A stretch of 64,000 bases of DNA from contig JAMDBD010000021.1 in assembly GCA_023484105.1 (NCBI GenBank), positions 1 through 64,000 of the forward strand. The letters run 5' to 3'. Every line of letters starts with the position of its first letter. The stretch's first letter is position 1. The position numbers and the translations under genes were made by a program. Shown here in pieces: positions 25,949 to 28,654 of this stretch. The notes beneath the pieces are model-generated. The model did not search any database. It had not been told where the DNA came from and saw only the letters and a program-made list of their open reading frames with translations. The DNA is from Thermoplasmatota archaeon (GTDB taxonomy: Archaea > Thermoplasmatota > Thermoplasmata > Thermoplasmatales > Thermoplasmataceae).

Positions 25949-26767
25949 TCAGGCAATTAGTTCCTTAACGAACTGCGGAAGCCTGACACATCCCTCGAGA
26001 ATGTCTTTGTTGAAGTATCTGGCAGGTCTAATTTCCTCATTCCTTCCTGTTCCGGGATCATTCATTGTGAATGACCATAGGCCGCTTGGATATGTTGGAA
26101 TGAATGCCAGGTAGCTGAGTGAATTCCCGAACGCGCTTCTTATCGCCCCGGTTGCCTTCCTTATTGCAAATGGCTGGTAGAACGGAGAACCGGACTGGGT
26201 TACTGCAACTCCGCCATCATTTAGGATCCTCTTTACATCACCATAGAATTCTGCAGTAAAGAGTCCCTCAGCAGGCCCCACTGGATCTGTGGAATCTATA
26301 ATGACCATGTCAAATTTTTCCTTAGATCTGGAAACATATTTGATACCGTCATCAATTATCAGATTTACGCGCGGATCTGAAAGAGAGGAGGCAATCTCTG
26401 GAAAGAATCGTCTGGATAGCTCAACGACCTGTGAGTCTATCTCAACGTTTACTATCTTGCTGAGGCCCAGATCTAGAAGGCGCCTTGCAGTACCTCCATC
26501 GCCGCCACCTATCACAAGCGCAGATTCAGGCCTTTTAGTTGCAAGATAGAACGGAACCATTGTTATCATTTCATGGTAGATGTGTTCATCCTTCTCAGCC
26601 ATCTGCACAGTCCCGTCTATTGTCAGCAGTTTTCCGAAGTCATATGTGTCAAACAAATCAATTCTCTGAAAGTCAGTTTTTATGGAGAGAAGTTGGTCAC
26701 TCACCCTGAATGAAAGTTGCAGGTTGTCTGAATAACGCTCGGAAAACCAGTTTTCTATAAGTTTCAC
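25949..26767 (-). CDS. speE: Spermidine synthase-like aminopropyltransferase
   Basis: Transfers an aminopropyl group from decarboxylated S-adenosylmethionine to a polyamine. Conserved parts are the [10 protein letters not shown] strand, the nucleotide-binding [16 protein letters not shown], the acidic [16 protein letters not shown] and the active-site [19 protein letters not shown]. Length of 272 residues is normal. The product releases methylthioadenosine, the substrate of the MTA phosphorylase and MtnA also encoded in this window. The start is GTG 26767; a TATA-like AATTAAATAC lies about 25 bases upstream on the minus strand. Whether putrescine, agmatine or a longer amine is the acceptor cannot be told here. 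Confidence 0.93.
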
Positions 26768-26951
26768 GGTTGTTTATATTGAAAATGTATTTAATTATTG
26801 TTAAGATGGTTTCCAAATACCGCCTTATTAGCGCCGGTGCTGAAATCATATGTAAATATATTCGTATTTTAGGGCTCTACCAAGCATTTCCTTAATATGT
26901 TATAATTTTTATCTTAAAAGAGCAATTGCAGAAAAACTATGGAATTTCATC

Positions 26952-27020
26952 ACCCAGATAAACCCAAATAAAAATATTTAAATAGTCTTATGTGTATATT
27001 CATTTGGGTGTAACCCAAAT
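26952..27020 (+). promoter_or_regulatory. HTa control region: TATA box with four ACCCAAAT/ATTTGGGT half-sites
   Basis: The TATA-like TATTTAAAT lies at 26975-26983. Upstream of it are ACCCAGAT (26952-26959) and ACCCAAAT (26962-26969), whose starts are 10 bases apart. Downstream are ATTTGGGT (27002-27009) and ACCCAAAT (27013-27020), an exact inverted repeat with a three-base spacer that runs into the HTa start codon. The arrangement looks like an operator flanking the core promoter and also like an mRNA 5'-end hairpin that would hide the start codon. Confidence 0.6.
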
Positions 27021-27288
27021 GGTAGGTATAAGCGAGATATCGAAAAGCGTGTCGAAGAAGACGAACACAACACAGCGCGTGGCCAGGTCAGTGATAAAAA
27101 ACTTCCTGGACACAATAATCTCTGAGGCAGACAGGGGATCAAAGATAAACCTGGCAGGTTTTGGAATCTTTGAGAGGAGAAAGCAGAGCCCGAGGAAGGC
27201 AAGGAATCCGCAGACAAAGAAGATCATAGACGTTCCTGCAAAGAAGAAATTCGTCTTCAGGGCATCGAGCAAGGTAAAATACAAATAA
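27019..27288 (+). CDS. hta: HTa chromatin protein (bacterial HU-like)
   Basis: Main DNA-packing protein of Thermoplasma relatives, of bacterial HU origin, used in place of archaeal histones. The 89-residue sequence matches Thermoplasma HTa as I remember it almost throughout: MVGISEISK at the start, KINLAGFGIFERR in the body, PRKARNPQTKK in the DNA-binding arm and a basic tail FVFRASSKVKYK. The ATG at 27019 is chosen because it gives the family N-terminus; the frame extends to 26992. The promoter carries an unusual repeat array, reported separately. Its presence is the best single clue to the organism group. Confidence 0.97.
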   Translation: MVGISEISKSVSKKTNTTQRVARSVIKNFLDTIISEADRGSKINLAGFGIFERRKQSPRKARNPQTKKIIDVPAKKKFVFRASSKVKYK

Positions 27289-27328
27289 ACAAACGTTAAA
27301 AGCATATCTAAGTTAACAATCTCGGGGC

Positions 27329-28654
27329 ATGCATTCTAAGGATGTCCCCGAGATGCTGAATTTTTTGTCTTTGAAAGATATTGGTGATCTTTTTTCAGAT
27401 ATACCGCCTGACGTAAGGGTTGACGGAATAAATATTCCTGCCGGAATCAGTGAGGAGAAGCTTCTCGATGAGGCTTCAGCGATTGCGTCTTTGAACCGCC
27501 TTCCGAGCATAAGTTTCCTTGGAAAGGGGGCATATCGCAGATTTATACCGTCTGTTGTGGATCATGTTTCATCAATACCGCAGTTCCAAACCGCGTATAC
27601 ACCATACCAGGCAGAGATTTCCCAGGGAATGCTTCAGGCACTCTTCGAGTATCAGAGCGTAATAAGCGATCTGACAGGAATGGACATGACAAATTCATCA
27701 ATGTACGACGGACCCACTGCAGCCGGGGAAGCAGCGAGGATGGCATACAGATGTTCAGAAGGGGATACATTTCTGGTTCCGGACATAATAGATAGAAATG
27801 TTCTGAGCGTGATTCAGAACTATCTGCATGGTCTACCTGTCAAAATCACAAGTTATATGGTTGATCGCAAGACCGGAAAGATCGATCTCGCGGACCTGGC
27901 GTCAAAGGTGGACAGAAATGTTTTCGGCATATTTGCAGGGATACCAAATGCTCTGGGAATACTGGATGATAACGTTTTCAGAATACAGGAAATCAAGGGA
28001 AATGCAATGCTAGTAACATATTATGATCCAATAAGCCTTGGAGCCGTCAAGCCACCCGGAGAATACGGAACGGACATAGCGGTTGCGGAAGGACAGCAGC
28101 TTGGAATTCATCTTGCCATGGGCGGTCCCTATCTCGGCCTTTTCTCCTTCAGGAAAGAATATGTGAGAAAATCTCCTGGCCGGCTTATTGGGAAAACTAC
28201 AGATTCTGACGGAAATCCTGCATACGTGATGACCTTGCAAACAAGGGAGCAGCACATCAGACGTGACAGAGCCATGAGCAACATATGTACAAATCAGGCA
28301 CTCATGGCCATATCCGCCTTAAGTTACCTGAGCGCAATGGGATCTAAAGGTCTTAGGAGTGTTTCAGCGGCAACGCTGAAAAATTCCAGAAAACTGATAG
28401 ATGCCCTTGAGAAGACCGGAGCTGGAAAATATCCATTCAATGCAATTCCATTCTCTGATGTCCTTTTTAAGATGCATCTGAGCAGCAGTGATCTTGCAGC
28501 AAGACTTGGTGAAAGTGGAATTTCCGGGGGAATTCCAGCCAGGGATCTGATAACTTTTCCAGAGGAGGGTTATCACTTTTTCTCTGTCACTGAGCTGACT
28601 GGTGATGAGGAAATTGAAGCTCTGGCACATGCACTGGGAGGTGCCACAAGATGA
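27329..28654 (+). CDS. gcvPA: Glycine dehydrogenase (decarboxylating) subunit 1
   Basis: First half of the two-part P protein of the glycine cleavage system, 441 residues. Family features are FLGKGAYRRFIPSVVDH near residue 63, AYTPYQAEISQG, and NSSMYDGPTAAGEAARMA. It forms a heterotetramer with subunit 2; the PLP lysine lies in the latter. The start is ATG 27329, about 40 bases after the HTa stop; a weak TATA-like sequence near 27295-27308 suggests its own promoter. The four-base overlap with gcvPB indicates coupled translation. The T, H and L proteins are not in this window. Confidence 0.95.
   Translation: MHSKDVPEMLNFLSLKDIGDLFSDIPPDVRVDGINIPAGISEEKLLDEASAIASLNRLPSISFLGKGAYRRFIPSVVDHVSSIPQFQTAYTPYQAEISQGMLQALFEYQSVISDLTGMDMTNSSMYDGPTAAGEAARMAYRCSEGDTFLVPDIIDRNVLSVIQNYLHGLPVKITSYMVDRKTGKIDLADLASKVDRNVFGIFAGIPNALGILDDNVFRIQEIKGNAMLVTYYDPISLGAVKPPGEYGTDIAVAEGQQLGIHLAMGGPYLGLFSFRKEYVRKSPGRLIGKTTDSDGNPAYVMTLQTREQHIRRDRAMSNICTNQALMAISALSYLSAMGSKGLRSVSAATLKNSRKLIDALEKTGAGKYPFNAIPFSDVLFKMHLSSSDLAARLGESGISGGIPARDLITFPEEGYHFFSVTELTGDEEIEALAHALGGATR

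Follow-up and report, generated by a model that had tools for sequence, protein, structure and literature searches.

Bacterial HU genes are autoregulated, and leader hairpins that sequester the Shine-Dalgarno sequence or are thermolabile are a known kind of control. The accessible part of the report on mapped Thermococcus kodakarensis promoters places the BRE at a median of 33 bp before the start (PMC4247193). HTa, the HU-family chromatin protein of Thermoplasma, is described as having a histone-like preference for GC, and no sequence motif for it appeared in the available portion of the HTa chromatin paper (PMC6877293).

The promoter and leader of an HTa gene were characterized in the window (the whole 64-kb stretch of DNA that was analysed) by comparison with related genomes. 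The gene product matched PF00216 (HU family; E 1.7e-21) and is taken here to be of the Thermoplasma HTa type, a name that the PF00216 match does not itself give. HTa was present in 74 of the 77 genomes of the family, and the upstream regions of all 74 genes were compared. The comparison within the genus used the window and three congeners (the MAGs YP2.bin70, DS3.bin83 and A_EUR_06), whose HTa proteins were 97-98% identical. HTa is the main chromatin protein of this archaeon, and its promoter here is most likely of the normal strong archaeal type. On the basis of these sequence comparisons, we give a probability of about 0.7 to the reading that the site is an ordinary strong BRE/TATA promoter whose short leader folds a minor hairpin at its 5' end. 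The features discussed are listed in Table 1.

Table 1. Coordinates of features at the HTa promoter and leader in the window
Feature	Position	Strand	Remarks
Half-site 1, ACCCAGAT	26952..26959	+	Overlaps conserved upstream element; 4/8 bases invariant in genus; not kept as ACCCARAT
Position of HTa upstream element (TnnAnTAAAA, -18..-9 before BRE)	26953..26962	+	Window copy CCCAGATAAA is a poor match
Half-site 2, ACCCAAAT	26962..26969	+	AAT is part of conserved AATA before BRE; ACCC not conserved; 4/8 bases invariant
BRE and TATA box, AAAAATATTTAAATAG	26970..26985	+	16/16 bases invariant in genus; columns 1-13 nearly fixed in family
Left arm of 9-bp inverted repeat, CATTTGGGT	27001..27009	+	
Zone in which transcription is predicted to start; G27006 (TG step) favoured, A27002 the alternative	27003..27008	+	Leaderless-gene spacing, fixed G
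Weak Shine-Dalgarno-like GGGTG	27006..27010	+	Within left arm and loop
Right arm of inverted repeat, ACCCAAATG, whole ATG included	27013..27021	+	6-bp core in 4/4 congeners
HTa gene (ATG 27019-27021)	27019..27288	+	89 aa, HU family

The first-pass annotation had described four copies of an eight-base half-site around the promoter, and all four were present: ACCCAGAT (26952-26959), ACCCAAAT (26962-26969), ATTTGGGT (27002-27009) and ACCCAAAT again (27013-27020). The two upstream copies stood 10 bp apart, in agreement with the spacing of one helical turn that had been claimed for them. In the alignment of the genus, every base of the BRE/TATA segment was invariant, compared with half of the bases in each upstream half-site and 37 of 102 further upstream. 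Words matching ACCCARAT with at most one mismatch were absent from either upstream place in all three congeners, and none was found from -70 to +3 at 59 of the 74 HTa loci. The upstream pair was present only in the window among the 74 upstream regions; given this and its absence from the congeners, the pair is private to the window genome among those examined.

Promoter columns were counted from a BRE reference (column 0, which is 26971 in the window) at the 65 HTa loci, from 18 genera, that had a TATA anchor; the counts omit the other nine loci (L038, L044 and L070-L076) and with them genus g19. The anchored loci shared TnnAnTAAAA at about columns -18 to -9, AATA at -4 to -1, and a BRE/TATA that reads (C/G/A)AAATATTTTAATA, with columns 1-13 nearly fixed. 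In the window, half-site 1 spans -19 to -12 on this scale, and half-site 2 spans -9 to -2. Conserved columns -15, -13 to -9 and -4 to -1 underlie them, so both upstream half-sites overlap bases conserved for another reason.

The TnnAnTAAAA element seems, from the genomes scanned, to be peculiar to HTa promoters and no general promoter feature. A regular expression for the element matched 0, 0 and 3 promoters, and a promoter profile obtained by expectation-maximization (EM) was used instead; with this profile, genome G057 had TAA[AT]A at the place of the element in none of its 92 promoters other than that of HTa. Two of three patterns written for the element matched once each in 400 kb of G057, at the same place, which by its coordinates is the promoter of HTa itself, and the third had no match there. 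The same patterns gave one match in the other three stretches (461 kb), in G035 and not at HTa. The element may be an activator site or an UP-like site, and together with a G fixed relative to the promoter (see below) it is a better experimental target than the ACCCAAAT words.

The spacing of leaderless genes was used to predict the transcription start. An EM motif search on 398 starts of the genus gave a weak promoter profile, and the addition of G057 (400 kb) gave a sharp peak. In G057 the distance from BRE to ATG peaked sharply at 35 and was near background by 31 (expected genes in two runs, 19.1 and 21.9 at -35 and 1.5 and 0.6 at -31), in a set of open reading frames 100 aa or longer whose upstream stretch is free; the set contains some wrong starts and has HTa (89 aa) outside it. 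The peak in the genus of the window was broader (33-37). Applied from column 0, this spacing predicts a start between 27003 and 27008, consistent with the earlier proposal of a start near 27005 set by a TATA box at 26975-26983, which is conserved. A G occupied column 36 in 0.96 of the genus-weighted rows of the anchored loci, and the distance from BRE to start codon at the same loci ranged from 42 to 50. Because this G is fixed while the start codon moves, its position appears to depend on the promoter rather than on the ribosome site. This makes G27006 the best predicted start. A YR step (TCA) at 27001-27002 also was kept in many relatives (columns 30-31; C 0.69, A 0.60), and the three congeners lacked the A of column 31 (A27002).

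The inverted repeat over the start codon had been described as an exact 8-bp repeat with a 3-base loop that ends on the second base of the ATG. The repeat is perfect and has the 3-base loop, but its arms are 9 bp long and cover the whole ATG. The core of the repeat was found in all four genomes of the genus, as TTGGGTGTAACCCAA twice and as TTGGGGTAACCCAA twice, with arms of only 6 bp in the other three congeners; 6-bp arms arose in 0.9% and 0.55% of shuffled leaders. The spacer of the palindrome differed by one base (TTGGG-5-CCCAA vs. TTGGG-4-CCCAA), a difference more easily accommodated by RNA than by a rigid DNA operator. Because the MAFFT alignment shifts the left arm by one base, the comparison of the arms was made manually and with a script. 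The stem contained no compensatory (double) changes among the four congeners, only shortening and one-sided changes. Outside the genus, the leader repeat was gone in most other genera; genus g11 had a TGGG/CCCA stem at two of three loci, which shuffles equaled in 25% of trials. A search of Rfam 15 over 26760-27500 gave one match, inside the HTa gene and at 17.7 bits against a cut-off of 50, and none over the leader.

The verdict on the hairpin turns on the start site, because the 4-bp fold is ordinary and the full stem exceptional. RNA from 27006 folds only GGGU/ACCC (four of nine pairs; -4.6 kcal/mol at 37°C), a stability reached or exceeded by 27 of 398 genes over 13 nt before the start codon and 12 after. 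RNA from 27002 folds eight pairs (-8.1 kcal/mol at 37°C and -3.6 at 60°C). The full stem over -18..+8, available only to an mRNA that starts at 27001 or earlier, has -11.3 kcal/mol, which none of the 398 genes reached; this set comprises open reading frames 120 aa or longer, taken from the first ATG, in three stretches, with some starts wrong and with HTa (89 aa) outside it. The corresponding folds in the congeners had -8.2, -8.2 and -6.2 kcal/mol. The g11 fold had -7.9 at two of three loci, and most HTa leaders were near zero. In g9, whose HTa is the next closest, the folds were weaker (-4.5 to -6.1), and most other genera had little or none. Of the suggestion that the 5' end of the mRNA folds over its own start, the inverted repeat across the AUG is supported, but a start at about 27006 would leave only the four pairs. 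The duplex of GGGTG with the anti-Shine-Dalgarno sequence, taken from the 16S 3' end of a congener, had -6.3 kcal/mol compared with -7.4 to -13.3 in relatives with GGAGG or GGTG; the duplex in genus g4 was weaker still (-1.9 to -2.9). Since the Shine-Dalgarno-like sequence of the genus is weak, there is little for a hairpin to sequester.

Several of these observations would suit control by the leader hairpin, in which an mRNA beginning at 27001-27002 or upstream would hide its Shine-Dalgarno sequence and AUG in a stem of 8-9 bp, with HTa synthesis throttled, protected or made temperature-dependent as the effect. The exceptional stability of the full stem, the stability of the fold from 27002, the structured leaders of the congeners and g11, and the YR step kept in many relatives are consistent with it. 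We nonetheless consider it unlikely, as the spacing favours a start at 27003-27008, the stem shows no double change in the genus and shortens from 9 to 6 bp in the congeners, the g9 folds are weaker, and a stable stem over the AUG would be odd for an abundant protein. The form in which HTa dosage is set by a hairpin spanning the 5' end, the Shine-Dalgarno sequence and the AUG, and sensitive to temperature or to HTa binding, is highly unlikely. A temperature-sensing hairpin was rejected as the main reading because the start site probably cuts the stem.

Other structures were observed around start codons in the family. In four of 11 genomes of g4 (L049-L052), the region of the HTa start was spanned by another inverted repeat, GTTATC-N5-GATAAC, and these loci had next to no Shine-Dalgarno sequence. 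A CC just before the HTa start codon, sometimes as ACCATGG, was recurrent in g1, part of g4, g9, g11 and g13. The next gene after HTa, gcvPA, has its start codon (27329) in the loop of a hairpin of 9-10 bp (27319-27328/27345-27354) that was kept in all three congeners. Two of its pairs were changed on both sides between the window and the congeners (C-G/U-A and A-U/G-C); with four sequences, 96 of 500 shuffles did as well. The gcvPA hairpin was not evident at the 12 loci of other genera examined.

The cluster of four words is real and locally rare. The genome (1.29 Mb) contained 17 occurrences of ACCCAAAT, including three at HTa. Composition alone predicts a mean of 2.99, that is three, per 64 kb, so what stands out is the clustering and not the number. 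A non-simple 8-mer present three times within 70 bp was found at two places in 861 kb (the window, 64 kb; G000:C3, 140 kb; G035:C19, 257 kb; and G057:C1, 400 kb), with a fourth near-copy only at HTa. Inverted repeats with arms of at least 8 bp in -25..+10 were found at one of 519 other starts and at none of 271 in two genomes of the genus. The motif was picked after the sequence was seen, and these figures are not clean probabilities. Plain chance, under which the words arose by coincidence in an AT-rich promoter and none of the repeats has a role, would agree with the expected frequency of ACCCAAAT in the window and with the choice of the motif after 64 kb had been read. This explanation is highly improbable, however, given that the cluster is unique in the 861 kb and that the core of the repeat is kept in the four congeners.

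The four sites also had been proposed to be an operator, and the comparison of HTa upstream regions was divided on this point: the upstream pair was not kept in close relatives and overlies promoter bases conserved otherwise, and the leader copies kept a 6-bp palindrome core in all four congeners but not a constant spacer (5 or 4). A regulon search with the palindrome in the window's own genome and in the genus gave nothing beyond HTa: TTTGGG-N2-5-CCCAAA occurred once in the whole genome, the looser TTGGG...CCCAA was no commoner than its reversed control, and the settings of the other palindrome matches, judged by eye, had no common context. With the palindrome single in the genome and its looser form at the control level, there is no regulon behind a dedicated repressor. 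Nothing was found to link HTa itself to the site, and no paper linking HTa, Thermoplasma and autoregulation was found in the literature searched. An array of HTa-binding sites was rejected because the sites are not conserved and we know of no motif for HTa. Binding of a dimeric repressor or HTa to the start-site palindrome and to the tandem half-sites that precede the TATA box is highly improbable, for all the rarity of the four-copy cluster, the 10-bp spacing and the conserved palindrome core, as the upstream sites are absent from the congeners, the palindrome spacing varies by one base, its pattern does not recur in the genome above the control, and the preference of HTa is histone-like for GC in the available text (PMC6877293).

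The conservation pattern, the spacing and the folds thus favour the ordinary promoter with a short leader. TBP and TFB would bind the BRE/TATA segment, possibly aided by the conserved HTa-specific upstream element, and RNA polymerase would begin near 27006, so that the leader would be some 13 nt long and start with GGGUGUAACCC. This leader is predicted to fold only the 4-bp 5'-terminal hairpin, with the AUG free and the weak Shine-Dalgarno sequence covered, which probably has little effect. The upstream ACCCAGAT and ACCCAAAT would be genome-private changes on top of bases conserved in the promoter. Of the two arms of the repeat, the left would be the conserved start-site region and the right the lineage's own pre-AUG sequence. 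Against the ordinary-promoter account, the YR step at 27001-27002 (A of column 31, 0.60) allows a start at A27002 with eight pairs in the stem, and the conservation of the repeat core in the genus and the uniqueness of the four-copy cluster also count against it. Special control of HTa dosage by the site is at most weakly supported. The family comparison reveals conserved features of HTa promoters, namely TnnAnTAAAA and a G at a constant distance from the TATA box.

Like Shine-Dalgarno-sequestering or thermolabile hairpins, the HTa stem could cover the Shine-Dalgarno sequence and the AUG, but only if transcription starts at 27002 or before; unlike them, it shows no covariation, its Shine-Dalgarno sequence is weak, and transcription probably starts within the stem. 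HTa belongs to the HU family, as do the products of the autoregulated bacterial HU genes; in contrast to those genes, the sites at HTa are not conserved and nothing found ties HTa to its own promoter. There is a likeness to the T. kodakarensis promoters, as far as the accessible part of that report describes them: both have a BRE and then a TATA box, and the predicted HTa start, some 23 bp from the TATA box and 33-35 from the BRE, would be placed like theirs (PMC4247193). The HTa start is a predicted one and theirs are mapped, and HTa promoters, unlike those described in the same part of the report, share an extra upstream element (PMC4247193).
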